A stretch of DNA of 64,000 nucleotides from Longitalea arenae (GTDB lineage Bacteria > Bacteroidota > Bacteroidia > Chitinophagales > Chitinophagaceae). Within the stretch, counting starts at the first letter, position 1. Each line of letters opens with the position of its first letter. The stretch lies in NCBI RefSeq assembly GCF_016924755.1, contig NZ_JAFFJX010000009.1:124001-188000 (forward strand), read 5' to 3'. Under the pieces are notes generated by a model, which saw nothing but the letters and a program-made list of their open reading frames with translations, had not been told where the DNA came from and searched no databases. The position numbers were made by a program, and so were the translations under genes. Below are positions 5,756 through 55,830 of the stretch, in pieces.

Positions 5756-5834
5756 GTGAAATAGAAAGTATGAAGAAGTACGAATTTCAAGGACCGTTGT
5801 TTTCCTACTTCATATTTCCTACTTCCTACTTCAC
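5756..5834. repeat. inverted word-repeat element (GAAGTAGGAA words)
   Basis: The left arm (5756-5782) reads GTGAAATAGAAAGTATGAAG and onward. The right arm (5804-5834) is its imperfect complement, built from reiterated CCTACTTC and CATATTTCCT words. A spacer of about 21 bases separates them. It lies between the divergent alpha-2-macroglobulin and DUF4476 genes. The arms can pair in more than one register because the words repeat. Apart from this, the 5708-6051 gap holds only the candidate promoter at 5985. Confidence 0.6.
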
Positions 5835-5984
5835 ATATAGAACGATGCAAGTTGCAAATAAAATACATACGGCTAATTGTTAAAGTCCCTTAACGGCTGG
5901 CTGATGAATGGGTTTCGTTATGCGTGGGGGTTATTCCATTTCCTGCCTTATATATAGCAATATTAAATATAAGTTATTGATCCA

Positions 5985-5992
5985 TATGTTTG
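5985..5992 (+). promoter_or_regulatory. candidate -7 box for the DUF4476 gene
   Basis: TATGTTTG matches the Bacteroidota -7 consensus TAnnTTTG exactly and lies 60 bases before the ATG at 6052. No convincing TTG is seen at -33, so this is only a candidate. Confidence 0.4.
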
Positions 5993-6051
5993 TGCAACGT
6001 AAGTCCTGCAAAAAACGTTCTAGAAATATCAAAGCCCTTTAAACATCCAGT

Positions 6052-6795
6052 ATGAAAAAGACCTGTTTACAGATCCTGTTGGTGCTGCTCGCCTTCACGG
6101 CAGTGGCGCGCGACGGAGCCAATGACGGCATCATCAGCATTACCAGTTTAAGCCCCGCTGATATGCTTTTCGAAGTTGATGGCCGGCAATACCCCTTCAA
6201 TAACAATTCGCTCACCCTGCGTAATATTACGGCCGGTTACCACCAGGTAAAGGTGTATGTGAAGAAACCCAAGACCCTTCCTGGTCCGCAAACCATGATC
6301 TACAGCAAGAACGTGTATGTAAAACCGAAATATTATGTGGATATTGTCATTAACCGGTTTAACCGCGCTCTGATCGATGAGCAGCAGATCGTTGATAACC
6401 GCTATGATACAGATGACCGCAACAATCAGAACAATGCTACTGTTCCGAATATCAAAGATCCCCGTTACAATAACTTTCCCAGGAACAACAACAATACGGC
6501 GCCGCGAGCCATAGATGATGTTACGTTCGCTTCGTTTATGGAGACCATTAAACATGAGAGCTTCGACGACTCGCGGATGGCCATTGCCAGATCAGGTATA
6601 GATCAGAATTATTTTACAGCCGCGCAGGCCAAACAGCTGATCTCTCTTTTCTCCTTTGAGAGCAGCAAGCTCGAGATCGCTAAATATATGTATGGAAAAA
6701 TAACCGACCCTAAAAATTACTTCATAGTATATAATGCTTTTACATTCAGTAAAAGCAAGGAAGAGCTGGGCGAATACATAAGGAACTACAAATAA
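6052..6795 (+). CDS. secreted DUF4476 domain protein
   Basis: This is a 247-residue protein with a signal peptide (MKKTCLQILLVLLAFTAVA). Residues 25-105 are beta-rich and resemble a small carbohydrate- or peptide-binding fold (FEVDGRQYPF, GYHQVKVYV). Residues 115-155 form an Asn-rich, low-complexity linker with alternating N, D and R. The C-terminal 90 residues match DUF4476 (FASFMETIKHESFDDSRMAI through AKQLISLFSFESSKLEIA), a helical module common in exported Bacteroidota proteins. Its biochemical role is unknown; a cell-surface or periplasmic place follows from the signal peptide. It is a single gene ending at a bidirectional terminator shared with sucD. Confidence 0.85.
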   Translation: MKKTCLQILLVLLAFTAVARDGANDGIISITSLSPADMLFEVDGRQYPFNNNSLTLRNITAGYHQVKVYVKKPKTLPGPQTMIYSKNVYVKPKYYVDIVINRFNRALIDEQQIVDNRYDTDDRNNQNNATVPNIKDPRYNNFPRNNNNTAPRAIDDVTFASFMETIKHESFDDSRMAIARSGIDQNYFTAAQAKQLISLFSFESSKLEIAKYMYGKITDPKNYFIVYNAFTFSKSKEELGEYIRNYK

Positions 6796-6857
6796 AGGGG
6801 TATGCCACATTTGCTTTTGCAGTCGCACAGGTAATGGGGCACAACCCGATGGCCATT

Positions 6858-6900
6858 AAAAAACCTTGCAGATCATGCCGGAGCAGAACTGCAAGGTTTT
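6858..6900. terminator. bidirectional terminator between DUF4476 gene and sucD
   Basis: AAAACCTTGCAG and CTGCAAGGTTTT form a 12-base-pair stem around a 17-base loop, with A and T runs on its flanks. It sits between two convergent genes and can serve both. Confidence 0.75.
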
Positions 6901-6922
6901 GCTATTTAAAAGCGGATTACGC

Positions 6923-7795
6923 TTATTTCTTAATGATCTTGGCCATGGTAACGCCAATATCAGCAGGGCTCGACACTACGGTGATACCGCATTCCTGCAT
7001 GATCTTCATTTTGGCTGCAGCTGTATCTTCTGCACCGCCAACGATAGCGCCGGCATGACCCATACGGCGTCCGGGAGGAGCTGTTTGACCGGCAATAAAG
7101 CCCACTACAGGTTTTTTACCATTTTCCTTATACCAGCGGGCGGCTTCAGCTTCCATACCACCACCAATTTCACCGATCATTACCACGCCTTCTGTTTCCG
7201 GATCGTTCATGAACATTTCCAGTGCTTCGCGGGTAGTAGTGCCAATGATGGGGTCGCCACCGATCCCTACAGCTGTAGAAACACCCAAACCGGCTTTAGC
7301 TACCTGGTCAGACGCTTCATAAGTAAGCGTACCTGATTTAGATACGATACCGATCTTACCTTTTTTGAATACGAAGCCCGGCATGATGCCTACTTTGCAT
7401 TCACCGGCAGTGATAACGCCCGGACAGTTAGGCCCGATAAGGCGGGTTTTAGTGCCCTGCAGGTACAATTTGGCTTTCACCATATCCTGCACAGGAATAC
7501 CTTCCGTTATACATACTACCAGTTCAATGCCGGCATTGGCAGCCTCCATAATAGCGTCGGATGCAAAAGCCGGTGGTACAAATATGATCGACACATTGGC
7601 CCCGGTTTCCTTTACAGCTTCCGCTACGGTATTAAATACCGGCCTGTCTAAATGCAATGTGCCACCTTTGTTTGGTGTAACGCCACCTACCACATTGGTA
7701 CCATATTCTATCATTTGTGTAGCATGAAAGGTACCTTCTGTACCGGTAAAGCCCTGCACCAGGATCTTTGATTGTTTGTTTACTAAAATACTCAT
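6923..7795 (-). CDS. sucD: succinate-CoA ligase (ADP-forming) alpha subunit
   Basis: This 290-residue protein is the alpha subunit of succinyl-CoA synthetase. With SucB it interconverts succinyl-CoA plus ADP/GDP and phosphate with succinate, CoA and ATP/GTP in the citric acid cycle, in the cytoplasm. The start [20 protein letters not shown] is the usual N-terminus with the CoA-binding Rossmann domain. GPNCPGVI lies mid-protein, and [13 protein letters not shown] near residue 245 contains the histidine that is phosphorylated. Length is normal for the family. The sucB partner is not adjacent, which is frequent in Bacteroidota. A candidate -7 box lies at 7833-7840. Confidence 0.97.
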
Positions 7796-7832
7796 CAGCG
7801 GAAATTTAGTTCCCCGACATTTATCGGGTGTG

Positions 7833-7840
7833 CAAAAATA
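7833..7840 (-). promoter_or_regulatory. candidate -7 box for sucD
   Basis: Read on the minus strand this is TATTTTTG, an exact TAnnTTTG match whose last base is 38 bases from the sucD ATG. The leader between them contains a short CCCGA/TCGGG stem (7814-7829). Confidence 0.4.
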
Positions 7841-7852
7841 GGGGATAATGGG

Positions 7853-7890
7853 TTAATTAGCTAATGTGATAATCAGCGAATGTGCACATG
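7853..7890. repeat. single-arm word-repeat remnant (TTAGCTAATGTG words)
   Basis: TTAATTAGCTAATGTGATAA and the bases after it use the same word family (GCTAAT, AATCAGC, ATGTGC) as the full inverted element at 36423-36565. No second arm is present. The rest of the 7796-8139 gap contains weak small ORFs on both strands that I do not accept as genes. Confidence 0.4.
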
Positions 7891-8139
7891 AAAGCAGGTA
7901 ATTTCCGGGAACGTTTGCGGAAGAAGAAGGGCTTACGGGCAACGGGCCACAAAGGCAACCAGCATGGCCGGCCGGCATTGGGAGAAAATATTTTGGGGCC
8001 AGGCGCCGGAATCAATATTAAGCATTTGTTGCGTCGCACACTTGTACGCCTGATCCGCTATTCGGCAAAGGAGGGCACTATTAGAAAAAATTAATTTTGC
8101 TGCTTGTTAATGCGGCTGGCGGGGCGGATCGCGTGTTTA

Positions 8140-8955
8140 TTAACCCGGCGGAAGTAATTTATCCATATCCCTGTCATTGGAGATTTTACCCGTTTGTTCC
8201 AGCATACGCATGTCTTTGGCGTCTTTTAAGAATTCTGAGGCGAAGATGAATTCGTTCAGGCGTTCATTCTTGTTAAAAATGATCTCCTTATTACTGCCTT
8301 CCCATTCTTTTTTACCCTGGTACATGAATATGATATGATCGCCGATCTCCATTACAGAGTTCATATCGTGGGTGTTCACCACCGTTGTAATGTTATATTC
8401 GGTAGTGATCTCTTTTACAAGTTTATCAATAACAAGCGATGTTTGGGGGTCGAGGCCTGAGTTAGGCTCATCTACAAAAAGATATTTAGGATTTAACACA
8501 ATGGCGCGTGCAATACCCACCCTTTTTTTCATCCCACCGCTGAGTTCAGCAGGATACTTTTTATTGACATCTTTCAGGTTAACCCGTTCCAGCACCCCGT
8601 TCACCCGCTTTAGTTTTTGCGCATAGGTATCCTGGGTGAACATGTTCAGCGGGAACATAATGTTTTGCTCAACGGTCAAACTGTCGAATAAGGCAGAACC
8701 CTGGAACAGCATGCCGATCTGCTGGCGGATCTCTTTCTTTTCTTCTGCGCCCAGTTTATTAAAATCTTTATCATCGTAGCAGATCTCGCCCTGGTCGGGT
8801 ACCAGCAAACCTACCATACATTTCATGAAAACCGTTTTACCGCTACCGCTGGCGCCGATAATGAGATTGCATTTACCTGGCTGCATGGTAACCGTTACAC
8901 CGTTCAGTACGGTTTTCTCACCAAATCCTTTTCTTATGTTTTTTACTTCGATCAT
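8140..8955 (-). CDS. Mla-type phospholipid ABC transporter ATPase
   Basis: This is a 271-residue ABC ATPase. The Walker A motif GASGSGKT is at residues 34-41, the signature LSGGMKKRVGIARAI near 140 and the Walker B FVDEPNSGLDP shortly after. The LSGGM form and the high similarity to MlaF/Ttg2A place it in the MCE-associated family that moves phospholipids between the outer and inner membranes of Gram-negative cells. It lies downstream of the MlaE-like permease on the same strand with an unusually long 149-base gap. An MlaD/MCE gene is not next to it. The function as a lipid transporter is by family; direction of transport is not deducible. Confidence 0.88.
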   Translation of the reverse strand: MIEVKNIRKGFGEKTVLNGVTVTMQPGKCNLIIGASGSGKTVFMKCMVGLLVPDQGEICYDDKDFNKLGAEEKKEIRQQIGMLFQGSALFDSLTVEQNIMFPLNMFTQDTYAQKLKRVNGVLERVNLKDVNKKYPAELSGGMKKRVGIARAIVLNPKYLFVDEPNSGLDPQTSLVIDKLVKEITTEYNITTVVNTHDMNSVMEIGDHIIFMYQGKKEWEGSNKEIIFNKNERLNEFIFASEFLKDAKDMRMLEQTGKISNDRDMDKLLPPG

Positions 8956-9104
8956 TGGCTTTTAATTCATGCTACGGATCCCTTCCAAACGCGTCTGCCC
9001 GGGCCCGGGGACATTAACAGCTCTAACTTATTAAAGTTCTATTAGTTCTACTTATTGACCGTTTTACCGGCGTTTTCGCTGCCGGTCATTGCTGCACGCA
9101 GCCA
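8956..9104. repeat. intra-operon spacer with GC palindrome and AGTTCTATT words
   Basis: The gap between the permease stop and the ATPase start contains a perfect 12-base palindrome CCCGGGCCCGGG (8998-9009). Next to it is a low-complexity run at 9019-9058 of reiterated AAAGTTCTATTAGTTCTAC words. This looks like a degenerate single-arm member of the word-repeat class inside an operon. Confidence 0.4.
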
Positions 9105-9845
9105 TTATTGTAACAATAATGCGGCCAGCACATAGTCGGCAAACAGGATGCTCACGCAGCTCACGACCACAGACTTGGTGCTCGACCGGCCGATCTCCAG
9201 GGCGCCGCCCTGCACATGATACCCATAATATGCTGGTATACTGGAAATTAGGAACGAAAAAGTATAGGCTTTTACCAGGGCGAAAAATACGTTGTACTGT
9301 TGAAAATTCGACAGCAAGCCCGTTTCATATTGATTGGCCGATAAAATGCCCGCCGAAGTAGCGGCCAGTTGTCCGCCCAATATGCCCAGCGCGGCCGAAA
9401 TGACCACGAGCAGGGGGATCATAATGAGAGAAGCCAGGATCTTGGGTAATACCAGGTAGGCCTTGGTATTGATACCCATGATCTCCAGGGCATCGATCTG
9501 CTCGCTTACCCGCATGTTGCCCAGCTCACTGGCGATCTTACTCCCAACCACACCGGCCAGTACGATACAAACCAGGGTGGGAGCGAACTCCAGAATGACC
9601 GTATCCCGCACGATCTGGGCAACGGTGCTCATGGGAATCACGGGGCTAACCAGCTGATAAGCGGTTTGCAGCGCCGAAACCGCCCCCATAAAGAATGAAA
9701 TGATGACCACTATGCCTAATGAACCGATACCGATCTCATTGCATTGGTGCATCAGCTCTTTCCAATACATCTTCCAGTTTTCAGGTTTCGAAAACATTCC
9801 TTTTATCATCAACAGGTAACGGCCAAACTCTGTAAATAAAGTCAT
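9105..9845 (-). CDS. Mla-type ABC transporter permease (MlaE/YrbE family)
   Basis: This 246-residue membrane protein has the MlaE pattern: an amphipathic N-terminus, then about five to six hydrophobic segments. The conserved block VILEFAPTLVCIVLAGVVGS is followed by the cytoplasmic coupling segment GNMRVSEQIDALEIMGI, both hallmarks of the family. It should form the membrane channel with the ATPase encoded just downstream (8140-8955) in the lipid-asymmetry pathway. The ATG at 9845 gives the standard N-terminal length. The MCE-domain partner that normally completes the complex is not in the window. Confidence 0.9.
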   Translation of the reverse strand: MTLFTEFGRYLLMIKGMFSKPENWKMYWKELMHQCNEIGIGSLGIVVIISFFMGAVSALQTAYQLVSPVIPMSTVAQIVRDTVILEFAPTLVCIVLAGVVGSKIASELGNMRVSEQIDALEIMGINTKAYLVLPKILASLIMIPLLVVISAALGILGGQLAATSAGILSANQYETGLLSNFQQYNVFFALVKAYTFSFLISSIPAYYGYHVQGGALEIGRSSTKSVVVSCVSILFADYVLAALLLQ

Positions 9846-9902
9846 GATTGATAATCAATGATGTAAAAATACAGTTTAATAGGGAAATGGCAAGTAAAGG
9901 CG

Positions 9903-9993
9903 TTACAAGTTACCGGTTGCCGGTAACCAGTTGCCGGTAACCAGTCGCAGGTTAGCAGTTGCCGGTTACCGGTTGCCGGTTACCAGTTGCCGG
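9903..9993. repeat. word-repeat block (GTTGCCGGTAACC words)
   Basis: Seven or so imperfect copies of a 12-14-base word (GTTGCCGGTTACCGG and variants) follow one another. Each word is itself partly palindromic, for example GTTACCGG-TTG-CCGGTAAC at the left end. The block lies upstream of the permease gene, beside the separate element at 10017-10087. Confidence 0.7.
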
Positions 9994-10016
9994 TTTTCCC
10001 GGGTACCATACAGAGC

Positions 10017-10087
10017 GTTACAGGTTACAGGTTGCAGGGGAATCCCGCATCAATATGCCCTGTAACCTGTATCCTGTAACCTGTAAC
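10017..10087. repeat. inverted word-repeat element (CAGGTTACAGG family)
   Basis: The left arm 10017-10040 reads GTTACAGGTTACAGGTTGCA plus GGGG. The right arm 10058-10087 is CCCTGTAACCTGTATCCTGT plus AACCTGTAAC, its imperfect reverse complement. The spacer is 17 bases. It begins eight bases past the maeB stop codon, so it would be transcribed as a hairpin at the 3' end of maeB mRNA. Confidence 0.75.
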
Positions 10088-10094
10088 TATAGTA

Positions 10095-12413
10095 TTATTT
10101 CTTCTTCCACCAGGGCTTTTTGGCCGCTTCCTGGTTGTTATTATTACATTTCAACTGGGCATCGATGACTGCAATAAGCGCCATATTGTAAATGCTGCGC
10201 ACCGAACTGCCCAGCTGCAGTACATGCACCGGCTTTTTCAGTCCCAGCAAAATAGGGCCAATGGCATCTGCGCCACCGATCTCTTTCATGAGGTTGTAGG
10301 CGATATTACCCGCTGCCAGGTTCGGGAAGATCAGGGTGTTCACTTCCTGGTCAACCAGCTCGCTGAAGGGATAATTTTCGCGCAGTATATCCTGCCTGAA
10401 GGCGATACTAGCCTGCATTTCGCCATCTATGATGATCGTGGGATCTTTTTGTTTTACAATGTCCTTTGCCCGGGCAACCAGTTTGGCTTCCGGCGAATCG
10501 CTGCTGCCGAAATTGGAGTAGCTCAGCATGGCGATCCGGGGCACCAGGTTAAAGCTGCGCACTTCTTTGGCCGCCAGCAACGTGATATCGGCCAGTTCTT
10601 CTGCCGTGGGGTTAAAGTTCACGGTTGTATCGGCCAGGAACAAAGGACCTCTTTTGGTCAGCAGCATGTACATGCCCGCGATCTTTTTCACGCCTTCTTC
10701 CATCCCGATCACCTGTAATGCGGGGCGGATGGCCTCTGCATAATTACGGGTCAAACCGCTGATCACCGCATCGGCATCGCCGTTCTCTACCATCATACAA
10801 CCGAAATAGGTGCGGTCTTTCATCATCTTGCACGACTCATACAGGTTCACCCCTTTGCGCTGGCGTTTTTTGAAGAACAGCTCCCCGAATTGTTTACGTT
10901 TCTCTTCATACTCATCATTGCGCGGGTCAATGATGGACATATCGTCGAGGTCGATATTATTTTCCAGGGCCATCTGTCTGATCTTTTTCTCATCACCTAA
11001 CAAAATGGGATGACAAATACGTTCATCAGAAGCGATCTGGGCCGCCTTTAATATTTTAACGTTATCGGCTTCAGCAAAGATCAGCCGTTTCGGATTGCGG
11101 CGGGCTTTGGCGCCAAGTACCCGCATCAGCTGATTATCGAGGCCCAGCCGTTTATTTAGTTCTATAGAATAAGTTTCCCAATTGGTGATCTTCGTTTGTG
11201 CAACCCCGCTGTCAATGGCGGCTTTTGCAACGGCAGGTGCAACGGTGCTCAACAGCCGCGGATCGAGTGGTTTTGGAATAATATAGTTGGGACCGAATGA
11301 TAAATTCTTTTCGTTATAGGCAATGTTCACGATGTCGGGCACAGGGCTCTTGGCCAGTTCGGCCAACGCTTTCACCGCCGCCAGTTTCATCGCTTCGTTT
11401 ATCTGTGTGGCGCGAACGTCCAGGGCGCCGCGGAAGATAAACGGAAAGCCAAGCACGTTATTCACCTGGTTCGGATAGTCACTGCGGCCGGTACCCATGA
11501 TAACATCTTTGCGGGCTGCAGTACAATCTTCATAAGTGATCTCGGGATCGGGATTCGCCATGGCCAGTACAATCGGGTTCTTCGCCATGCTCTTAACCAT
11601 TTCCTGCGATAATACATTGCCCTTGCTGAGGCCGATGAATACATCCGCGCCATCGAGCGATTGCTCCAGGGTAACATTCTTGCCTTTGCTGATAAATTCC
11701 TTTTTCAACTCGTCGAGGTCGTTGCGGCTTTCGTGAATAAGGCCTTTGCTATCGAATACGAGAATGTTTTCACGTACTGCCCCCAGTGCTTCGTATAGTT
11801 TTATACAGGCAATCGCTGCGGCGCCTGCGCCGTTCACTACGAACTTACATTTCTCGATCTTTTTCTTTTGCAATTCCAGGGCGTTCAGCAGGGCGGCTGC
11901 GCTAATGATGGCAGTACCGTGCTGGTCGTCGTGCATCACCGGGATTTTCATTTGCTTTTTCAGCTCCTGCTCTATGTAAAAGCACTCAGGCGCTTTGATA
12001 TCTTCGAGGTTAATGCCCCCGAAAGTTGGTTCCAGGGCTTTAACGATCTGAACGAATTTCTCCGGGTCTTTTTCATTGATCTCGATATCGAATACATCGA
12101 TGTCGGCAAATATTTTGAACAATACACCTTTTCCTTCCATAACGGGTTTGCCGGCTTCAGGGCCAATATCGCCCAAACCTAATACGGCGGTCCCATTGCT
12201 GATCACAGCTACGAGGTTCCCTTTGGCAGTGTATTTATAAACAGCTTCCGGATTGGCGTGAATTTCTTTACAGGGTTCTGCGACACCAGGGGAGTAGGCA
12301 AGGGAAAGGTCGCGTTGGGTTTTTGCTTCTTTGGTTGGGATCACTTCGATTTTGCCAGGACGGCCCTTGGCATGGTACTCTAGTGCGGATTCCTTTCGCA
12401 ATTCTTTTTTCAT
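10095..12413 (-). CDS. maeB: NADP-dependent malic enzyme with phosphotransacetylase-like domain
   Basis: This protein is a two-domain malic enzyme of the MaeB type, 772 residues from the ATG at 12413 ([20 protein letters not shown]). A TTG eight codons upstream is open but less likely. Residues 1-430 are the malic enzyme: [14 protein letters not shown], the metal and substrate region DDQHGTAI, and a Rossmann dinucleotide site [12 protein letters not shown]. Residues 430-770 resemble phosphate acetyltransferase and usually act as a regulatory domain for acetyl-CoA. It oxidises malate to pyruvate and CO2 with reduction of NADP, supplying NADPH in the cytoplasm. It is monocistronic; downstream lies an inverted word-repeat element. 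Confidence 0.95.
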
Positions 12414-12437
12414 CTGAAATCTTTTAGCCAGATGCAA

Positions 12438-12814
12438 CTTACTATGACAGCATTTTCATTGTACTACAGATTAATGAAAATACTACCAGGGCGTTTCATC
12501 GGTTATTTTTTAATAATTCACCAGGCGCCCGGCAGGCCGGGGACCGGTTTGTTTACCATGGATCATTTTCAATCAAACAATTATGACGGAAAATAGATGC
12601 ATGGGTGGTTAATTCATAGATCTAATTAGAACAATTGGCGCGCAATTTACGGGAAAAGCGATTACATGATAATGGGCAGGCGTGTATATGTTATATAATT
12701 GTTATGTAATAGGTTGGCACTGAGCCGGCTTGTACGTTTCCCCGTGCGGAGGGCCGTTGAGGTTGTTGATCGATTCCGCGTATGTACAACGATTGCTTAG
12801 AGGTTGGCCAGCCA
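12438..12814. other. intergenic stretch with no recognised feature
   Basis: This 377-base gap lies between maeB and the secreted orphan, both on the minus strand. I see no convincing ORF, RNA gene or strong hairpin in it. The maeB promoter should lie at its left end. Confidence 0.5.
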
Positions 12815-13513: not shown

Positions 13514-13629
13514 GGGAATGGTTTGTCTTTATTAAAACTGCTGCAAAATAGATATTGTATAAAACTAATGCAATAGCCCCGCTCATCACTTTTTTTCACC
13601 GAAACAGCTGTAAAACCCGGAAAAGCTCT

Positions 13630-13637: not shown

Positions 13638-13638
13638 T

Positions 13639-20186: not shown

Positions 20187-20280
20187 TCCAGGTTGCAAGT
20201 ACACGGCCTGCAAGTTTCAGGTTCAGGGATGTTCACCTGTTGCTGTTTTCCTTGTAACCTGTAACATGTAACCTGTAACA
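20187..20280. repeat. inverted word-repeat element (CAGGTTACAGG family)
   Basis: The left half has CCAGGTTGCAAG, GCAAGTTTCAGG and GTTCAGGG words. The right arm 20249-20280 is CCTTGTAACCTGTAACATGT plus AACCTGTAACA. It ends five bases from the deoC stop codon, on its 3' side, the same placement as the element behind maeB. Confidence 0.65.
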
Positions 20281-25707: not shown

Positions 25708-26310
25708 ATGAAAAAAATTCTGGTAATAGTTGGCGCTATTATATGCACGACTGTAGTATTCTTTTACTGCGATCAAGCCAAAACAGGCCCGGAAAATCAG
25801 CAGCTTGCCGTTAAAGGCGCCGTGACGCCCGATAGTATGGTAAAGCGGGGCAGATACCTGGTGACCATTATGGGCTGCAACGATTGTCATACTCCTAAGA
25901 AAATGGGGCCGAAGGGACCCGAATTTGATACCGACAGAATGTTGTCGGGCCATCCGGCTGAGATGCCGGTAGCGAAATATGATGCCGGCACTGCTAAAAA
26001 CTGGATATTATTCAACCAGATGCTCACCAATTATGTAGGGCCCTGGGGCATTTCTTATTCTGCGAACCTCACGCCCGATTCCACCGGTATTGGCAGCTGG
26101 ACCGAACAGCAGTTCTTCAAAGCCATCCGGGAAGGAAAATACAAAGGGCTCGATAATAGCCGCCCACTGTTGCCGCCGATGCCCTGGCAGGAATTCAGCC
26201 ATGCAAGTGATGAAGATCTGAAAGCGATCTTTGCGTACCTGAAATCGATCAAGCCGGTCAGGAATGTAGTGCCTGCCGCCAGGATCAATAATATGCAACA
26301 GCAACAATAA
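25708..26310 (+). CDS. membrane-anchored or secreted c-type cytochrome
   Basis: This is a 200-residue monohaem cytochrome c. An N-terminal hydrophobic segment (ILVIVGAIICTTVVFFYC) exports or anchors it. The haem motif is CNDCH (in MGCNDCHTPKKMGPKGP), and the likely axial methionine is in PPMPWQEF near residue 160, followed by the closing SDEDLKAIFAYLKSI helix. The pattern is of the small cytochromes that pass electrons to terminal oxidases or dehydrogenases in the periplasm. No redox partner is adjacent. An FNR-type box upstream suggests control by oxygen or nitric oxide. Confidence 0.9.
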   Translation: MKKILVIVGAIICTTVVFFYCDQAKTGPENQQLAVKGAVTPDSMVKRGRYLVTIMGCNDCHTPKKMGPKGPEFDTDRMLSGHPAEMPVAKYDAGTAKNWILFNQMLTNYVGPWGISYSANLTPDSTGIGSWTEQQFFKAIREGKYKGLDNSRPLLPPMPWQEFSHASDEDLKAIFAYLKSIKPVRNVVPAARINNMQQQQ

Positions 26311-26500
26311 AAAGGCAAAAAGGCACAAAAGGCAGAGAGCAAAAGGCAAAGAGGCGATAAAAGCAAAACGCAAGGGCCAACAAGTAATAGGAATAGGTAA
26401 TAAGCAAGCCTAGAGTTGAACAAGTTGGCTTCATTTGTTGGTGCCTGTAACCACATCGATCAACGCAAGCCTGGCCCTGCAGTTTTTGCGTTTTACGTTT
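26309..26500. repeat. low-complexity word repeat (AAAAGGC words)
   Basis: Right after the cytochrome stop, AAAAAGGCAAAAAGGC words repeat to about 26380, changing to AAAAGCAAAACGCAAGG, then AATAGGAATAGGTAAT. The stretch at 26480-26497 (CAGTTTTTGCGTTTTACG) is a rough complement of the AAAACGCAA words. It is a looser member of the word-repeat class. Confidence 0.5.
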
Positions 26501-27368: not shown

Positions 27369-27506
27369 TTGCAGGTTTCATGTTACAAGTTGCAGGTCGC
27401 CGGTCACCGGTTACCGGATCTGCAATCTGTATATGTTACAGCGTTGCAAGCTGCAGAAGCATTTACTTATAAGACCCTTGTAGCCTGAAACATGCAACCT
27501 GTAAAC
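27369..27506. repeat. inverted word-repeat element (CAGGTTACAGG family)
   Basis: The left arm begins TTGCAGGTTTCATGTTACAA and goes on into GTCGCCGGTCACCGGTTACC words like those at 9903-9993. The right arm 27477-27506 is CTTGTAGCCTGAAACATGCA plus ACCTGTAAAC. It lies one base past the DUF1080 stop codon and in a convergent gap. Confidence 0.7.
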
Positions 27507-31711: not shown

Positions 31712-32056
31712 CAGCTGGTCAAAAAGGATGCTACAGTTTGGCAGCTAGCCAATTTGACAGGGACGTCAAAGGTAAGAAAAAGCGGGCAGTTGGCCTGATA
31801 GAAGTCAATGGTTTGCAGGCAATAATTGCACCTTTTGGCCACCGGCCGGGCTTTACGCATGTGAAAAGGGGGAATATAATTGTCTGGGCGGTTTGCAGTT
31901 TCTGCCTGGGCTTTTAAATGCCGGAAATTTCAGCTCCCGGTTTACGGCCGCTACAGGCAGCGCCTGCACCCGGTGCCAGCCCTGTTCAATGCTTACTCCG
32001 GGTTTGAAGGGGGCCATCTGCGGCAATTTGCCCTGGTTGGCAGCTACCTGTACTGT

Positions 32057-32143
32057 AAGTGTCCCCTAGATGTCTCGTACCTTTAAAGGAACGGCTTATA
32101 TACGGGACATCTACGGGATATGTACGAAACAAGTACGAGACTT
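32057..32143. repeat. inverted word-repeat element (GTCTCGTAC / GTACGAGAC words)
   Basis: The left arm AAGTGTCCCCTAGATGTCTC plus GTACC (32057-32081) pairs imperfectly with a right side of ACGGGACATCTACGGGATAT, GTACGAAACAAGTACGAGAC and TT (32102-32143). Words alternate between GTCCCGTAGAT and GTCTCGTAC. The innermost and outermost parts can pair in several registers. Confidence 0.65.
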
Positions 32144-33409: not shown

Positions 33410-33473
33410 GGTTAATGGGCCATTGAAACTTTAACTAAGATACGGGCTTTCGTGGTATTAAGGAGCTTTATCG

Positions 33474-33558
33474 GTTACAAGTTCCAGGTTACATGATACA
33501 AGGAATACAGGTACACAAAGGCAAAGCCCTGAAACCTGCAACCTGTAACCTGGAACTG
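33474..33558. repeat. inverted word-repeat element (CAGGTTACAGG family)
   Basis: The left arm 33474-33503 reads GTTACAAGTTCCAGGTTACA plus TGATACAAGG. The right arm 33528-33558 is CCTGAAACCTGCAACCTGTA plus ACCTGGAACTG. The spacer is 24 bases. It lies between the porE-like gene and dprA, on the 3' side of the former. Confidence 0.75.
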
Positions 33559-35505: not shown

Positions 35506-35518
35506 CTGGTGCTTTTGA

Positions 35519-35551
35519 TCGTGAATGGTCGATGGTCAATGGCAATGGAGA
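35519..35551. repeat. single-arm word-repeat remnant (GGTCAATGG words)
   Basis: GTGAATGGTCGATGGTCAAT then GGCAATGG repeats an eight-to-nine-base word four times directly upstream of the porE-like gene. No clear complementary arm is present, unless the ATTCTTTTTACCATTT at 35572-35587 is a decayed one. Confidence 0.4.
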
Positions 35552-36422: not shown

Positions 36423-36565
36423 TGCATGTGCTAATATGTTGCTCTGCATGTGCTAATTTGCTAATTAGCTGATTTGCTGATGCTGTATTACCGGGCTGGC
36501 AGCCTGGTCTCGCGCATCTCAACGGGGCATTAGCAAATCAGCACATCAGCTAATCAGCCCATCAG
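36423..36565. repeat. inverted word-repeat element (GTGCTAATTTGCTAAT words)
   Basis: The left arm runs from 36423 to 36485 with words GTGCTAAT, TTGCTAAT, TAGCTGAT and TTGCTGATG. The right arm 36527-36565 reads GCATTAGCAAATCAGCACAT plus CAGCTAATCAGCCCATCAG, its close reverse complement. It fills the gap between queE and folD. The same words occur in the single-arm remnant at 7853. Confidence 0.8.
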
Positions 36566-50164: not shown

Positions 50165-50176
50165 AAATGAAAAATC

Positions 50177-51604
50177 ATGAGAAAGTTCCTTTATATAGCA
50201 TTGCCCATATTGTTTTTAGCGGCATGTACAAAAGATATCTCCCGTTTTAACCAGGAAACAAAAAAGCCCTCAGTGGTTCCTGGCCCCATGTTGTTCTCAA
50301 ATGCAGTGAAAAATATTTCCGATGGCCTGGCCAATGCCAGCGTGAACGTGAATGTATTCAGGTTTACGGTAAAACACTGGGCCATGGCTGTGTATCAGGA
50401 TGAAGCGCAGTATGATTTCAATACGCGCGCCATACCCCAAGCCTGGTGGACGAGGATGTACCGGGATGTATTGAATGACTTGAAAGAGTCGGCAAAGATC
50501 ATCTCTGCAGATGCCTTCCTGGATCCGGGCGTTAAGCAAAACCAACTGGCAATTATTGATATCATGCAGGTGTATGCCTATAACATCCTGGTAAATTCTT
50601 TCGGTAATGTTCCATACAAGGAAGCCTTGGACCCGAACAACCTGTTCCCGGTATATGACGATGCCAAAACCATCTATACCGACCTGTTAAAAAGGCTGGC
50701 CGAGGACATCAGTAAATTGAATGCCGCCAGTGGCGGATTTGCAGCTACCGATGACCTGGTGTATAAGGGTAGTGTTGCGAAATGGATAAAGTTTGCCAAT
50801 TCGCTTCAAATGAAAATGGGTATGGTCATGGCTGATGTTGATAATGCAGCAGCAAAAGCAGCTATTGAATCAGCAGATGCAAAAGCATTTACTTCATCGG
50901 CTGATGACGCCTTGCTGAAATATTTACCCACGAGTCCGAACACAAATCCCTTGTATACCGATATAGTGGTAGGCGGACGTTCTGATTATGTTGCTGCGAA
51001 AGACCTGATGGATCCATTGATCGCATTGAATGACCCGCGTAAATCTTTGTATTTCGGTACCAACAATAACGGGGTTTATGCAGGTGGTACCGTAGGTACC
51101 GTAAATACCTATGCCGATTTCAGCAAACCAAGTGACAAGGTCTCTGCACCGGATGCGCCGCTGGTGCTGGGCGATTATGTAGAGACCGAGTTTTTAAGGG
51201 CGGAAGCCAAAGAACGTGGTTATAATGTTGCCGGCACTGCCGAAGAACACTATAACAATGCCATTAAAGCGTCTATTTTGTATTGGGGTGGAACCGAAGC
51301 GGATGCCAATGCTTACCTGGCGCAGCCTGGCGTGGCCTATGCAACCGCTACAGGTGGCTGGAAACAAAAGATCGGTTTTCAGAAATGGATCGCATTATAC
51401 AACCGTCCATTCGACGGCTGGGTGGAACTGAGAAGGCTTGATTATCCGGTATTGCCGCTGGCAGTAAATGCCGTTTCGGGATTTCCCAATAGGTTCCCGT
51501 ACCCGAACAATGAGCAGCAGTTAAATGGTACCAATTACTCTGCAGCAGCCGCTGTAATGGGTAATGATAAAGTAGAATTCAAACTGTTCTGGGATAAATT
51601 TTAA
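50177..51604 (+). CDS. SusD/RagB family outer-membrane lipoprotein (SusD-like 2)
   Basis: This is a 475-residue lipoprotein with lipobox LAACTKDISRFN. The helical body shows KHWAMAVYQDEAQYDFNTRA, LVNSFGNVPYKEALDPNN and WIKFANSLQMKMGM; the end has FDGWVELRRLDYP, typical of the family. It should bind substrate above the SusC partner encoded just upstream. No third gene follows; a hairpin ends the unit. Confidence 0.95.
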   Translation: MRKFLYIALPILFLAACTKDISRFNQETKKPSVVPGPMLFSNAVKNISDGLANASVNVNVFRFTVKHWAMAVYQDEAQYDFNTRAIPQAWWTRMYRDVLNDLKESAKIISADAFLDPGVKQNQLAIIDIMQVYAYNILVNSFGNVPYKEALDPNNLFPVYDDAKTIYTDLLKRLAEDISKLNAASGGFAATDDLVYKGSVAKWIKFANSLQMKMGMVMADVDNAAAKAAIESADAKAFTSSADDALLKYLPTSPNTNPLYTDIVVGGRSDYVAAKDLMDPLIALNDPRKSLYFGTNNNGVYAGGTVGTVNTYADFSKPSDKVSAPDAPLVLGDYVETEFLRAEAKERGYNVAGTAEEHYNNAIKASILYWGGTEADANAYLAQPGVAYATATGGWKQKIGFQKWIALYNRPFDGWVELRRLDYPVLPLAVNAVSGFPNRFPYPNNEQQLNGTNYSAAAAVMGNDKVEFKLFWDKF

Positions 51605-51618
51605 TTGAACGCTTTTAT

Positions 51619-51663
51619 AAAAAGGGGGGAGCTTCTCTTGCAGAAGGGGGGGCCTCCCTTTTT
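51619..51663 (+). terminator. terminator of the second Sus operon
   Basis: AAAAAGGGGGGA and GGCCTCCCTTTTT form an imperfect stem around a 20-base loop, 15 bases after the SusD stop codon, followed by TGCGTTTTT. Confidence 0.6.
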
Positions 51664-51724
51664 GCGTTTTTAGCGTTTATTGCAGAAAAATAAAATTCAG
51701 TATGAACCATTACGCCCGGTTTCT

Positions 51725-51732
51725 TACTTTTG
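51725..51732 (+). promoter_or_regulatory. candidate -7 box for the DUF3467 gene
   Basis: TACTTTTG is an exact TAnnTTTG match, with its last base 17 bases before the ATG at 51749. Confidence 0.5.
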
Positions 51733-51748
51733 GGTCTTAAACTTTGTA

Positions 51749-52066
51749 ATGATGGAAGAGCAAAACCAGCCGCAAAATCAGCTAAATATCGAGATTTCTG
51801 AAGAAGTAGCAGAAGGGGAATATGCCAATCTTGCCATCATTACCCATTCTCATGCAGAATTTGTAATAGATTTTGTGAACGTAATGCCCGGCACTCCCAA
51901 AAGCAAGGTAAAATCCCGCATTATATTAACGCCGCAACATGCCAAGCGCTTTATGAAGGCATTAACGGAGAATATCCAGCGTTTTGAAGCAGCCAATGGA
52001 AAGATCCAGGACCTGGAAGAAGTTCAGATCCCCATGACTTTCGGCGGACCAACAGCGCAGGCGTAA
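51749..52066 (+). CDS. DUF3467 family protein
   Basis: This is a 105-residue cytoplasmic protein, from MMEEQNQPQNQLNIEISEEV; the second Met (51752) may be used. DUF3467 members have this layout: GEYANLAIITHSHAEFVIDF, MPGTPKSKVKSRIILTPQHA and KRFMKALTENIQRFEA. Function is not known; the fold is predicted to be a small beta-alpha unit, and the gene is conserved across Bacteroidota. Candidate -7 box upstream. It is followed by the four-copy tandem repeat. Confidence 0.9.
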   Translation: MMEEQNQPQNQLNIEISEEVAEGEYANLAIITHSHAEFVIDFVNVMPGTPKSKVKSRIILTPQHAKRFMKALTENIQRFEAANGKIQDLEEVQIPMTFGGPTAQA

Positions 52067-52068
52067 TA

Positions 52069-52742
52069 AGTTTATTGTTTATAGTTTGTTGTTTATAGTT
52101 GTCTTATTTCGGAGGGCTGAGATCTTGATGTGCAGTCATTGATTTCAGGGGCATTTGAATTCTCAAATTTCAGCCTTGAAGAAATAGTCGGCAATCGCAA
52201 AATGCCGGTAACAACAAACCACTTTAATAGTTTATTGTTTATAGTTTGTTGTTTATGGTTCTTTTGCTCCGGAAGACTGAGATCTTGATGTGCAGTCATT
52301 GATTTCAGGGGCATTTGAATTCTCAAATTTCAGCCTTGAAGAAATAGTCGGCAATCGCAAAAAGCGGGTAACCACAAACCAGAAACCACAAACCACTTTA
52401 ATAGTTTATTGTTTATAGTTTGTTGTTTATGGTTCTTTTGCTCCGGAAGACTGAGATCTTGATGTGCAGTCATTGATTCCAGGGGCATTTAAATTCTCAA
52501 ATTTCAGCCTTGAAGAAATAGTCGGCAATCGCAAAATGCCGGTAACCACAAACGATAAACCACTTTAAAAGTTTATTGTTTATAGTTTGTTGTTTATGGT
52601 TGTCTTATTTCGGAGGGCTGAGATCTTGATGTGCAGTCATTGATTTCAGGGGCATTTGAATTCTCAAATTTCAGCCTTGAAAAATCATCGGCAATCGCAA
52701 AATGCGGGTAACCACAAACCAGAAACCACAAACCACAAACTA
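52069..52742. repeat. four tandem copies of a 160-174-base inverted-end unit
   Basis: Units start at 52071, 52231, 52405 and 52572, so the period is 160, 174 and 167 bases. Each begins with AGTTTATTGTTTATAGTTTG plus TTGTTTATGGTT and ends with AACCACAAACC/AGAAACCACAAACCAC, the near-complement of its start. The core is well conserved and contains a perfect small hairpin ATTTGA-ATTC-TCAAAT in three units (ATTTAA in the third). Copies 1 and 4 share one variant block (GTCTTATTTCGGAGGGCTG), copies 2 and 3 another (CTTTTGCTCCGGAAGACTG). It sits between the DUF3467 gene and the 3' end of radC. Period and structure exclude CRISPR. Confidence 0.9.
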
Positions 52743-53432
52743 TATTATTCCCTCGTCGGCAAAACTGAAATAGCCGTTATCACTGACTATAATATGGTCG
52801 AACAGCGAGATATCGAACAGTTTGGCCGCATCTTTCAGTTTTTTAGTGAGCTCCTGGTCGGCACGGCTGGGCTGTAAGCTGCCTGATGGATGGTTATGGC
52901 ACAGGATCAGGCTCACGGCCTCTTCGAGCAGGGCTTTCTTTAATATTACCCTGGGATCAGCTACGGTTCCCGTAAGACCGCCCATACTAACGATCTCAAA
53001 ATGATTAATGCGGTTGGCCTGGTTCAAATAAGCCACTGCAAATACCTCATGCGGCAGGTCGCGCAGCAGCGCCTGCAGGTAGCTGGCGATATCGCGGCTG
53101 CTCTTCACAAAGGGCTTTTCCATACACAGGGAAGCCTGGCGGCGGCGCCCCAGTTCAAGAGCAGCCGTGATGGTGATTGCCTTCACTTTTCCGATCCCTT
53201 TAATGCGCAGCATCTCCTGGATGGTAACTTTACCTAGTTCATTTAGGTTGTTCTTGCCCAGTCGAAGGACCTCTTTTGCCAGATCAACGGCATTTTTTTC
53301 CCGATGACCGTTACCGATGAGGATGGCCAGTAGTTCCGAGTCGCTTAAAGTGGATGGATTTTTCCCAAGTAGCTTTTCCCGGGGGCGGTCGTCTTTAGCC
53401 CACTTTTTTATTGAAAATTTAGTTTCTTGCAT
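52740..53432 (-). CDS. radC: DNA repair protein RadC (JAMM protease-like)
   Basis: This is a 230-residue RadC. Residues 60-90 hold a helix-hairpin-helix (MLRIKGIGKVKAITITAALE). The JAMM/MPN+ metal site is H179, H181 and D192 in CHNHPSGSLQPSRAD. Full length; the protein's role in the cell is still unclear despite its name, and it is often found near mobile DNA. Here its 3' end touches the tandem repeat array. Confidence 0.95.
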   Translation of the reverse strand: MQETKFSIKKWAKDDRPREKLLGKNPSTLSDSELLAILIGNGHREKNAVDLAKEVLRLGKNNLNELGKVTIQEMLRIKGIGKVKAITITAALELGRRRQASLCMEKPFVKSSRDIASYLQALLRDLPHEVFAVAYLNQANRINHFEIVSMGGLTGTVADPRVILKKALLEEAVSLILCHNHPSGSLQPSRADQELTKKLKDAAKLFDISLFDHIIVSDNGYFSFADEGII

Positions 53433-53558
53433 AGTTCAAATATTTCTAGTACTTTTCGGACAAATACTATAACCACAAAATGTACGTTATGTACTAGTAT
53501 GTGCGTTATTTCATATATAAATCCAAATCTTATTTAGAAATACATAATCTATATCCCC

Positions 53559-53774
53559 ATGAATAGAAAGACTACTTTAGCCGCTATTGGAGGTTATCAA
53601 CCCTTCCTTTTTTGCATCGGAATGTACTTTGTGGCCCTTTTCTTCTCCATTTTTATATGTTCTGCTGTTTTTTATGCATTCTATCCTAAAAAGATTGCGA
53701 AAGACGCTACCGGGCATAAAACAGCCGCTACCACAAACGGTGGGTCAAGGATGTTGCTGACAGTAACCAAATAA
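53559..53774 (+). CDS. small single-span membrane protein
   Basis: This is a 71-residue ORF with an ATG at 53559. One strong hydrophobic helix (MYFVALFFSIFICSAVFYAF) is followed by a basic tail (YPKKIAKDATGHK). No family recognised. It lies alone between radC (divergent) and prs. The good membrane helix argues it is real, but codon evidence is limited. Confidence 0.45.
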   Translation: MNRKTTLAAIGGYQPFLFCIGMYFVALFFSIFICSAVFYAFYPKKIAKDATGHKTAATTNGGSRMLLTVTK

Positions 53775-53917
53775 CATGTGATCTGGGGATCACCGATTAA
53801 TCAAAAACCATTGAAACACTATTTTTTTCTGTACAACGATGAAATAAATTTTTTGTACATAGGTTATCGGTCAAATCCCATGCTTCGCTTTATCTTCGCC
53901 GCACATTTTATTGCGGT

Positions 53918-54868
53918 ATGCAAATGTCAGTCAAGATCTTTTCAGGCACAGGCTCACAATACCTGGCCGAAAAAATAGCTCAGAAATTCGGAGCTACCCT
54001 TGGAAAAATAACCATCTCGAAGTTCAGCGATGGAGAAATTCAGCCTGTATTCCAGGAAAGTATCCGGGGCGATATGGTTTTCCTGGTGCAAAGTACCTTT
54101 GCCCCGGCCGAGAATATTTTAGAATTATTATTGATGATCGATGCCGCCCGGCGGGCTTCGGCCTACAAAGTGGTGGCGGTAATACCATATTATGGCTACG
54201 CGCGGCAGGATAGAAAGGACAAGCCCCGCGTAGCCATTGGTTCTAAGCTGGTTGCCAATATGTTAGTGGCTGCCGGCGCCGATCGCGTGATCACCATGGA
54301 CCTGCACGCTCCACAGATCCAGGGCTATTTTGACATCCCCGTAGACCATCTCGACAGCTCCGCTATTTTTATTCCTTACATCCAGCAACTTCAGTTGGAA
54401 AACCTTACCTTTGCGGCCCCTGACGTGGGAAGTGCCAATCGCATCCGTGAAATTGCCTCTTACTTCAATGCAGAAATGGTAATATGCGATAAACACCGTA
54501 AACGGGCCAATGAGATTGCCAGTATGGTGGTGATTGGTGACGTTACCGACAGGGACATAGTGCTGATAGATGATATTTGTGATACAGGCGGCACACTGGC
54601 CAAAGCAGCCGGTTTGTTGAAGGAAAAAGGAGCCCGCAGCGTTCGGGCACTGTGTACACACCCTGTTTTAAGCGGGAATGCATACTCTAATATTGAGAAA
54701 AGTGTACTGGAAGAACTGGTAGTATGTGATACCATTCCGCTGAAACAGAAAATATCAAAAGTGAAGATCCTAAGCGTGGCCGAACTGTTTGCAGTAGCCA
54801 TTCGCAACGCCTACGAGAACAGAAGTATCACCGGGTTATTTATCCATAGCCAAAGGAGAAATAGTTAG
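53918..54868 (+). CDS. prs: ribose-phosphate pyrophosphokinase
   Basis: This is a 316-residue PRPP synthetase, which makes phosphoribosyl pyrophosphate from ribose 5-phosphate and ATP for nucleotide synthesis. The start is ATG at 53918 or the second ATG at 53924 (MSVKIFSGTGSQYLAEKIAQ). ATP-binding and flexible-loop residues lie in YGYARQDRKDKPRVAIGSKL. The PRPP loop reads DRDIVLIDDICDTGGTLAKA. Length is normal. A weak -7 box (TATCTTCG) lies 20 bases upstream. Confidence 0.97.
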   Translation: MQMSVKIFSGTGSQYLAEKIAQKFGATLGKITISKFSDGEIQPVFQESIRGDMVFLVQSTFAPAENILELLLMIDAARRASAYKVVAVIPYYGYARQDRKDKPRVAIGSKLVANMLVAAGADRVITMDLHAPQIQGYFDIPVDHLDSSAIFIPYIQQLQLENLTFAAPDVGSANRIREIASYFNAEMVICDKHRKRANEIASMVVIGDVTDRDIVLIDDICDTGGTLAKAAGLLKEKGARSVRALCTHPVLSGNAYSNIEKSVLEELVVCDTIPLKQKISKVKILSVAELFAVAIRNAYENRSITGLFIHSQRRNS

Positions 54869-54870
54869 GT

Positions 54871-54966
54871 GAAGATGCCGCGGCGAAAGAAATGATTGAG
54901 GATGGCCGGGATCGAGCCATTGAAGCGTCAGGATTGACATTACGATTTACGGACTTTATAAATTAA
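54871..54966 (+). pseudogene. orphan coding-like fragment between prs and rplY
   Basis: The frame starting at 54871 reads EDAAAKEMIEDGRDRAIEAS then GLTLRFTDFIN and stops at 54966. An in-frame stop at 54862 closes it on the left. The amino-acid make-up looks like the C-terminal end of a real helical protein, with no good start apart from an internal ATG. I take it as a possible gene relic; I do not recognise the parent. Confidence 0.3.
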
Positions 54967-54974
54967 AATAAACA

Positions 54975-55607
54975 ATGAAAACAATTACAATCGAAGGACA
55001 ACTGAGGACCGGAACCGGGAAAAAAGCCACCCGACAACTTCGCTCTCAGGGACTGGTGCCTGGTGTAATTTACGGCGGTACACAGGAAATTGCTTTCGCA
55101 GCACCTGTGCTGGCTTTCAAATCCATCGTATATACTCCTGATTTCCAGTTAGCTGACATTAAAGTTGACGGAAAAAGCTACAAATGTATTCTGAAAGATC
55201 TCCAGTTCGACAAGGTAACAGATCAGCTGTCACACGTTGACTTCCTGGAGCTGGTTCAGGATAAAGCAGTAATCGCAACTATTCCTATTAAGTTCACTGG
55301 TGCTTCTCAGGGCGTAAAAGATGGTGGCCGTCTCATTACCAAAGTGAAAGCTTTAAAAGTAAAGACGCTTCCTCAACACCTGAAAGAGAATATCGAAGTT
55401 GATATCACCAACCTGCAGCTGAATGGCAACATTCGCGTTGAAGATGTGAAAGAATCGAACTACGAGATCCTGAACTCACCGCGTATTCCCATTGCATCCG
55501 TTGTAATGACGCGTCAGTTGAAACAGGAAGAAGCTGCTGCTGCACCTGCTGCCGGAGCTAAAGCACCCGCTGCTGCTGCTGCAAAAGCACCTGCTGCTAA
55601 AAAGTAA
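54975..55607 (+). CDS. rplY: 50S ribosomal protein L25 (CTC/TL5 type)
   Basis: This is a 210-residue L25 of the long general-stress (CTC) type, which binds 5S rRNA in the large subunit. The N-domain begins with ITIEGQLRTGTGKKATRQLR and includes LVPGVIYGG. The C-terminal beta domain runs from about 95 to 185 (HVDFLELVQDKAV). The last 25 residues are an Ala/Pro/Lys tail with AAAAPAAGAKAPAA repeats, a usual feature of Bacteroidota forms. Gene order prs-rplY-pth is the classic one. Confidence 0.97.
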   Translation: MKTITIEGQLRTGTGKKATRQLRSQGLVPGVIYGGTQEIAFAAPVLAFKSIVYTPDFQLADIKVDGKSYKCILKDLQFDKVTDQLSHVDFLELVQDKAVIATIPIKFTGASQGVKDGGRLITKVKALKVKTLPQHLKENIEVDITNLQLNGNIRVEDVKESNYEILNSPRIPIASVVMTRQLKQEEAAAAPAAGAKAPAAAAAKAPAAKK

Positions 55608-55620
55608 CTTAAGATAGATT

Positions 55621-55646
55621 AAGCCCGGCTTTAGCTGGGCTTTTAA
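55621..55646 (+). terminator. terminator after rplY
   Basis: AAGCCCGGCT-TT-AGCTGGGCTTTT is a stem of about nine pairs with a T tail, 14 bases past the rplY stop. Confidence 0.8.
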
Positions 55647-55657
55647 GTCAATATAAA

Positions 55658-55830
55658 GCGGTCAAGTGAGTCACATGAGGATCTGAATAAAAGGAATCAT
55701 TGACTGATTTGACCGTTTTACTGATCTGACCTTTGGACAAGGGCTCATTTGACCATTGTGGTTCATTTGACGGTTCAACCGATCAGACCTTTTTGATCCA
55801 TCAGACTGTTTTGATCATTTTGAGCCTTTT
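55658..55830. repeat. word-repeat region (TTTGACC / GATCTGACC words)
   Basis: The gap between rplY and pth is made of reiterated six- to nine-base words: CGGTCAAGTGAGTCAC, ATTTGACCG, GATCTGACC, CATTTGACC, CATTTGACGG, GATCAGACC, CATCAGACTG and TTGATCATTTTGAG. CGGTCAA (55659-55665) and TTGACCG (55709-55715) are opposite in sense, but no long clean stem forms. It is the same class of texture as the inverted elements elsewhere. Confidence 0.6.

Follow-up and report, generated by a model that had tools for sequence, protein, structure and literature searches.

The DNA under study (G000:C39:124001-188000), referred to here as the window, is a stretch of 64,000 nt from a 7.28-Mb genome, hereafter the own genome, which is included in a genus set of ten genomes assigned to Niastella (Chitinophagaceae). 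In these soil bacteria, many intergenic gaps hold arrays, that is, back-to-back runs of words of 7-9 nt, and the features of this kind located in the window are summarized in Table 1. A sequence-only reading of the window had named nine places at which unrelated words appeared to share one inverted, word-repeat architecture. In comparisons with dinucleotide-model shuffles, 200 for the period and 20 for the inversion (giving the inversion p a floor of 0.05), five of the nine showed a significant array with an inverted partner, one was inverted without a significant period, two were weak single arrays, and one showed nothing. Among the three places taken for single-arm remnants, 7853 and 35519 carried weak arrays and 9019 no repeat; the stretch at 9019 is kept in several sister species and thus looks like conserved leader DNA. 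Site 32057, with its period of 11 and its C-first order, falls outside the class of 7-9 nt. The gap orthologous to the four-copy element at 52069 is a 68-bp hairpin in G003, the nearest sister (83.1% identity across the window, 86.6% in gap flanks). The loop DNA of this element has no second place in the genome, and a whole-loop mobile element was ruled out there, the loop being confined to its own gap.

Table 1. Repeat features of the window, with the per-site comparisons against shuffles and remarks on sister species
Feature	Position	Strand	Period and inversion	Remarks
Inverted element, GAAGTAN word, period 7	5745..5832	.	Site 5756: period 7 at 5802-5832 (0/200 shuffles); inversion score 17 vs shuffle maximum 13	G003 gap with GAAGTCT words
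Single weak period-8 array, GCTAATNT type	7842..7890	+	Site 7853: weak array, p 0.01; inversion not significant (5/20 shuffles equal it)	Same conserved start bases in most sister species (by eye)
Conserved leader-like DNA 5' of mlaE	8997-9063		Site 9019: no period (p 0.305), no inversion	Little altered in several sister species, shortened in others (by eye)
Period-7 array, GTTACCG/GTTGCCG words, partly self-complementary	9902..9995	.	Period-7 score 27 (0/200 shuffles); inversion 15 vs maximum 9	
Inverted pair CAGGTTA ... CCTGTAA, period 7	10017..10087	.	Inverted arms 19 vs maximum 11	Other words in G008, G001, G005 and G004
C-rich arm (TGTAACC), period 7	20253..20279	.		G-rich side of gap decayed (by eye)
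Imperfect AAAAGGC array, period 8 (Tandem Repeats Finder)	26309..26368	+	Under lag-scan threshold	Other words in several sister species
Inverted pair, CAGGTTN type	27369..27497	.		
Inverted repeat, period 11, C-first	32045..32141	.	Site 32057: period 11 (0/200 shuffles); inversion 17 vs maximum 11	
Inverted pair GGTTACA ... TGTAACC	33473..33556	.		
Weak single array AATGGTC, period 7	35518..35542	+	Site 35519: weak array, p 0.02; inversion not significant (3/20 shuffles)	G003 gap without array
Inverted pair GCTAATTT ... AGCAAATC, period 8	36444..36565	.	Site 36423: period 8; inversion 23 vs maximum 19	
GTTTATT ... AACCACA element, four tandem copies of ~174 bp	52067..52740	.	Site 52069: period 7; inversion 12 vs 10	174-bp unit x4 in tandem at 52068-52729
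Inverted repeat with TTTGACC words	55647..55830	.	Site 55658: inversion 17 vs maximum 12; period not significant (p 0.11)	Conserved in G003

The periodicity of these arrays was evident in the window as a whole. Its intergenic DNA contained 37, 92, and 28 self-matches of 6 bases at lags of 7, 14, and 21, respectively, against about 2 in shuffles, and no such peak was found in its coding DNA; of the 37 rows returned for the window by Tandem Repeats Finder, those in gaps mostly had a period of 7/14 or 8/16. In 464 kb of the own genome, including 65 kb of intergenic DNA, the lag scan detected 32, 16, and 3 segments at lags 7, 8, and 9, where shuffles gave 0 to 0.3 and coding DNA, after scaling, gave 1.2, 0.3, and 0.2. 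Lags 5, 6, 10, 12, and 13 gave 0 segments, and lag 11 gave 1. At a slightly lower threshold, the same sample yielded 70 arrays with 44 consensus words, and the own and genus arrays together yielded 123. Period 8 was found in 68 and period 9 in 11 of 191 own-genome arrays. Single words can be both abundant and widespread, as CAGGTTACAGG had 137 exact matches in the own genome (its reversed control had 0) and CAGGTTACAGGTTACAGG was present in nine of the ten genus genomes. Across the family, where each outside genome was graded as array-rich or array-poor from one or two 20-kb stretches or a single locus, the distribution was patchy, many Chitinophagaceae loci and stretches being devoid of arrays. 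The lag spectrum and the 44 words in 70 arrays thus bore out the claim of one architecture with many words, and the class of many-worded inverted arrays is real and extends beyond the window.

The scan for inverted intergenic arms of short period that the sequence-only reading had proposed gave, in addition to the lag peaks at 7-9 in 464 kb, an inverted pair in 64 of the 137 occupied gaps in 1.26 Mb of the own genome, where the single best pair per gap was scored and a score of at least 12 was demanded (median loop 48.5 nt). These pairs displayed a strongly biased polarity, the 5' arm containing more G than C in 56, less in 4, and equal amounts in 4, an order referred to here as G-first. The eight other Niastella genomes (25:3 among 28 pairs) and 79 loci of other GTDB species (18:1 with 2 ties among 21 pairs) showed the same order; a further 480 kb of G003 (29:9 with 2 ties among 40 pairs) was the set with the most exceptions, and 19 stretches from the family (7:2 with 2 ties among 11 pairs) were not significant alone. 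One genome entered two of the outside sets through different stretches, L011 and G018 matching identical places. With all sets pooled, 135 pairs were G-first as against 19, with 10 ties (164 pairs, all from Chitinophagaceae and built of many words, which vary between genera as judged by eye); since word families share history, these pairs are not independent events. Ordinary hairpins in array-free gaps of the own genome were G-first in 38 cases vs 49, with 15 ties (n = 102), and segments of other periods showed a weak background polarity of 43 to 34. The two sides of a gap differed in G and C only, A and T being alike. In array-free gaps, the left edge leaned toward G in the own genome (221:150), with the right edge not clearly C (188:174), and no such lean of the left edge was found in the genus set (56:61).

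The orientation of the arrays was also related to the adjoining genes, which were called as the longest open reading frames (ORFs) with no trained caller. Of 404 arrays, 379 could be scored, and in 280 of these the G-rich strand started near the closer gene and ran into the gap; in the extra set from G003, the array lay nearer the ORF on its 5' side in 86 of 119. Counted by word, this position law was followed by 89 of the 115 words having a majority. Unpaired arrays of the own genome were also biased, with 17 G vs 4 C on the left side and 27 C vs 5 G on the right (p 3e-6), and two smaller sets showed the same trend at a level that was not significant. Sorted by gap type, the ratio was 101:23 in convergent, 217:82 in codirectional, and 25:20 (not significant) in divergent gaps; within the divergent gaps, pairs were G-first in 9:2 (p 0.065) and singles in 16:8 (p 0.15), neither significantly. 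Because divergent arrays have no significant bias, yet divergent pairs are mostly G-first, a dependence on transcription is only possible. Convergent gaps were the most often occupied, at 28% in the own genome and 32% in the eight other Niastella genomes.

Comparison of close relatives, made between sister species rather than strains of one species, extended the claim of different words at different sites to orthologous gaps across nine genomes. In the mlaE gap, CAGGTTA-type arms were found in the own genome, G003, G007, G002, and G009, and other words in G008 (AAGGTTG), G001 (TTTGTTG), G005 (GGCAAAC), and G004 (CCGGCAA). Gap 27369 measures 8 bp in G003 and contains six other words or word mixes over seven other species (G007 = G008). 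As judged by eye, word arms flank an intrinsic-terminator-like hairpin at gap 33410 in G001, G004, G007, and G002, and the hairpin stands without arms in G005 and G009; this gap, unlike loops generally, does show arms around a terminator. No array was found in gaps 20961 and 25497 (nine genomes) or 37445 (four). Among 71 gaps paired between the own genome and G003, both genomes had an array in 11 (p 1.5e-5, against an expected 3.9), the own genome alone in 3, G003 alone in 9, and neither in 48. The arrays were similar in 7 of the 11 shared gaps and dissimilar in 4, of which gap 20073 was so counted only because different arms were detected in the two genomes. Of the 12 changed gaps, several (26310, 36522, and 55607) represented near-identical sequence straddling the threshold; at C11:554718 and C11:561812, a plain hairpin in the own gap corresponds to a word element in G003 (by eye). 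Whole insertions with target duplications, which the sequence-only reading had named as the mark of ordinary miniature inverted-repeat transposable elements (MITEs), were not found among these sister species, where one or two gains were clean. Inspection of the alignments by eye revealed no target-site duplication in 11 of the 12 changed gaps (the remaining one was too long), and none was visible at the cleanest gain, gap 57213.

The units of an array change gradually along its length. Their divergence was 0.25 between neighbours and 0.47 ten units apart (116 arrays; 37 unit pairs at ten), and one G001 array, as read by eye, walks in register from CGGCAAA through CGTGAAT and GGTCAAT to CCTGAAA. 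This rise of divergence with distance was in good agreement with the suggested local lengthening of words, and the unit ladder fits stepwise duplication with mutation, as slippage predicts. The further contention that copying of one element is not enough, since the words differ, loses some of its force, as one word can pass gradually into another within a single array. The first half of an array was slightly more uniform than the last (0.206 vs 0.238, p 7e-4, 290 arrays), and the flank lag-identity was 0.237 vs 0.208 (p 0.007, 199 arrays); these values are suggestive of a gene-proximal renewal of arrays, a small effect that was not used here.

The relation between the two arms was of a different kind. 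A mirrored unit order reached p<=0.05 in only 2 of 54, 1 of 24, and 3 of 27 pairs, in a test of low power because most arms have few units. For 62 of 137 own-genome arrays, one per occupied gap (6.9 expected), and for 28 of 77 in G003, the best partner in the array's own gap outdid 95% or more of the other gaps. Within a word family, however, the own-gap partner was no better than others, a mean fraction of 0.54 of the family gaps equalling it (56 own-genome arrays; 0.55 for 11 arrays of G003). The own-gap match being only average within its family, it is explained by the family word and not by local copying; words thus behave as attributes of families spread over the genome. Hairpin copying of the arms was rejected on the unmirrored order, low as the power of that test was, and together with the lack of coupling within families this left local inversion or template switching unsupported as the origin of the second arm. 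Meanwhile, the loops were mostly unrelated, with 2 pairs at E<1e-3 and 11 at E<0.05 among 57 loops; arms were more often related, in 29 (E<1e-3) and 80 (E<0.05) of 2016. No MITE-like common internal sequence was found in the 57 loops compared, the loop at 52100 being unique to its gap.

At gene ends, the elements were associated with a deficit of hairpins. A terminator-like hairpin was detected in 34 of 63 convergent gaps with arrays vs 79 of 97 without (p 3e-4), and since 66 of 139 array-free divergent gaps also score, the rate in occupied convergent gaps is near background. By association, replacement of terminators by word elements is a supported possibility; alternatively, the arrays may overwrite terminators without any function.

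None of three candidate generators, a Y1 transposase, a RAYT-like pair, and a reverse transcriptase (RT), tracked the arrays over the 37 or 45 genomes searched, insofar as one stretch or locus per outside genome can show. One strong Y1_Tnp match was found in each of the ten genus genomes; in the own genome, a 142-aa single-copy Y1 transposase gene lies within an apparent aro gene cluster (L198:4766-5194, G000:C40). RAYT-like matches (NF047646, under its curated cut-off) numbered two or three in each of the nine Niastella genomes searched, and the array nearest to the own RAYT pair, of period 9, lies ~420 bp off, past another ORF. An RT of ~505-530 aa was found in nine of the ten Niastella genomes, the tenth being 61% complete, a constancy that is unusual for a defence system. 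The own RT (L189:2491-5966, G000:C2) is closest to retron type XIII (PADLOC RT_XIII, 1e-186), and the ORF beside its gene carries a putative SWIM zinc motif. A retron-type RT was ruled out as generator by its wrong distribution outside the genus: G099, G147, and G055, whose stretches hold arrays, had no close match, and close matches were found in G086, G015, and G095, whose single 20-kb stretches lack arrays. A G-quadruplex basis was likewise dismissed, as a G3x4 pattern fits 1 and a G2x4 pattern 62 of 278 arrays.

Based on these observations, we tentatively favour the explanation that the elements are dispersed intergenic inverted repeats, behaving like repetitive extragenic palindromic (REP) sequences and bacterial interspersed mosaic elements (BIME), with arms made up of arrays of 7-9 nt words. 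Successive units of an array drift apart by whole-unit steps, as expected of replication slippage; both arms share one word with the G-rich arm first; and a gap occupied in one species tends to be occupied in another, sometimes with another word. A word family would arrive in a fresh gap in the form of a complete inverted element, the loop of which would then turn over quickly. The elements would survive mainly at gene ends, where a long imperfect hairpin may be tolerated and could take the place of a canonical terminator or shield the 3' ends of RNA. Several results weigh against this explanation. As regards spread, no clean insertion of a whole element with target duplication was seen in the gaps changed between the own genome and G003, and no array directly adjoins the RAYT pair of the own genome (4 kb, L207), RAYT itself being rejected as generator because its matches, present in 39 of 45 genomes, extend to genomes with an array-free sampled stretch. 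As regards a role at gene ends, the hairpin deficit of convergent gaps was not significant in the own genome alone (21/35 vs 46/60, p 0.1), and there was no significant deficit in codirectional gaps (50/151 with arrays vs 178/456 without, p 0.21). The hairpin scan was moreover lax, as is evident from the array-free divergent gaps that score in it; loops in general were discarded as terminators, being no more folded than the control (4/71 vs 7/80); and arrays lie in gaps of the apparent aro operon, which is a poor fit to strong terminators.

The alternatives differ mainly in what they take to set the word and the polarity. Purely local mutation, the idea of the sequence-only reading, would combine slippage from a local seed with hairpin-primed template switching that copies the opposite arm. 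The ladder of drifting units agrees with it, as do the arrays in gaps 7796 and 20073, which by eye resemble a seed at conserved start bases; with the unit order unmirrored (low power), no coupling past the family word, identical words at many sites, and the strong G-first order left unexplained, we consider it unlikely. If instead the arrays were selected for recognition, period and polarity would be maintained by a factor that binds DNA or RNA, or by the action of RNA polymerase and Rho on RNA that is first G-rich and then C-rich. Such selection could account for the G-rich strand leading away from the nearer gene (280/379), most strongly in convergent gaps, and for the fewer terminator-like hairpins in occupied convergent gaps; nevertheless, words change freely, which argues against any strictly sequence-specific factor, and divergent gaps lean G-first too, albeit without significance for pairs or singles, so that this account also appears rather unlikely. 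Mobilisation of REP-like hairpins by a conserved RAYT/HUH transposase of the Y1 type, which would at the same time set the strand polarity, could draw on the RAYT-like matches in all nine genomes searched and the strong Y1_Tnp match in all ten. It was judged improbable, given that no array stands directly at the own RAYT pair, that the genomes with RAYT-like matches (39 of 45) include some with an array-free sampled stretch, and that no conserved foot was seen in the arrays, unlike in REPs. In the last alternative, an RT would add the same G-rich word to both ends of a break by telomerase-like templated 3'-end addition; the observed polarity matches two telomeric 3' ends placed head to head, the arms share their word without a mirrored order, and an RT of ~505-530 aa occurs in nine of the ten Niastella genomes. 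The mismatch between RT and arrays (G099, G147, and G055; G086, G015, and G095), the variation of words by site, the divergence growing along the array, and arms that can enclose older DNA (gap 33410) render this highly improbable.

Among known systems, REP/BIME elements are dispersed, inverted, and intergenic, with many per genome, a REP being a single palindrome with a conserved foot. The Niastella elements share the dispersed intergenic inversion and differ in being arrays of short words, and at the own RAYT pair (4 kb) the flanking of a RAYT gene by copies, a trait of REPs, was not found. Cyanobacterial short tandemly repeated repetitive sequences (STRR) are heptamer arrays with several words; to our knowledge, inverted pairing and a G-first order are not among their features. 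In 435 kb of Trichormus plasmid DNA, the lag scan peaked at 7 (11 segments); the three inverted pairs detected were all G-first, and the arrays followed no position law (11:9). Plasmid A of Trichormus variabilis carries a G-first element (L234:43080-43134) that is inverted, has a period of 7 and GAGTCAG words, and much resembles those of Niastella.

A search of the open-licence literature returned no paper describing repeats of this sort in Niastella, nor one on an inverted class with many words. The view that no named class fits holds only in part, as one-word relatives are already in print (MacGregor 2015, PMC4679880; Rehm 2015, PMC4692102). MacGregor 2015 describes intergenic direct repeats of the heptamer TAACTGA from Beggiatoaceae, Cyanobacteria, and five Bacteroidetes, mentions assemblages in which heptamers are mixed, and reports indels between two Cyanothece strains that are mostly 7-nt steps (PMC4679880). 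As described there, those repeats differ in being of one word, direct (one indirect repeat in the main genome), and mostly just upstream of start codons; TAACTGA was absent from the 44 consensus words of the 464-kb own-genome sample, the only one searched.

The closest parallel is found in the heptameric repeats GGGAATC and GGGGA(C/T)T of Xanthomonas and Nostoc (Rehm 2015, PMC4692102). In that paper, which also mentions three heptanucleotides in Calothrix and cites from another paper the idea that 7 nt is the length of DNA at the polymerase active site, these repeats have a conserved core with variable positions and are intergenic, scarce between divergent ORFs, and, in two xanthomonads and Nostoc, closer to the ORF on their 5' side, whichever way it runs. 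Paired arrays in convergent orientation, an arrangement that we read as G-first, numbered 70 and 75 in the two xanthomonads. The Niastella arrays thus resemble this type in their tandem 7-nt units with a core, mainly intergenic location, G-first pairing, and proximity to the 5'-side ORF. It is possible, though doubtful, that both belong to a word-independent, polarity-fixed repeat class crossing phyla, in which a general process or constraint, and not the sequence, sets steps of 7-9 nt around intergenic space with the G-rich arm first and the C-rich arm second, using more than a hundred words in Chitinophagaceae and one in Xanthomonas, the Xanthomonas part of this proposal being our reading of Rehm's description; quadruplex formation would in that case be incidental to a single word and play no causal part. 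In Niastella, the architecture is separable from the sequence, as period, inversion, and G-first order persist while words change, even at one gap, and this constancy speaks against quadruplexes as the general reason for heptamer repeats. The 154 scored pairs accordingly offer a large natural set in which to seek what sets the step and the polarity, and whether hairpins of this kind could replace terminators. The type of Rehm (PMC4692102) has a single quadruplex-forming word per organism, a preference for four units, and few inverted pairs in Nostoc. The Niastella arrays, in contrast, fit a word with G3 runs in 1 of 278 cases, use 123 words and also periods of 8 and 9, and carry different words at orthologous sites; their new points are this last property and a polarity that stays fixed over many words.

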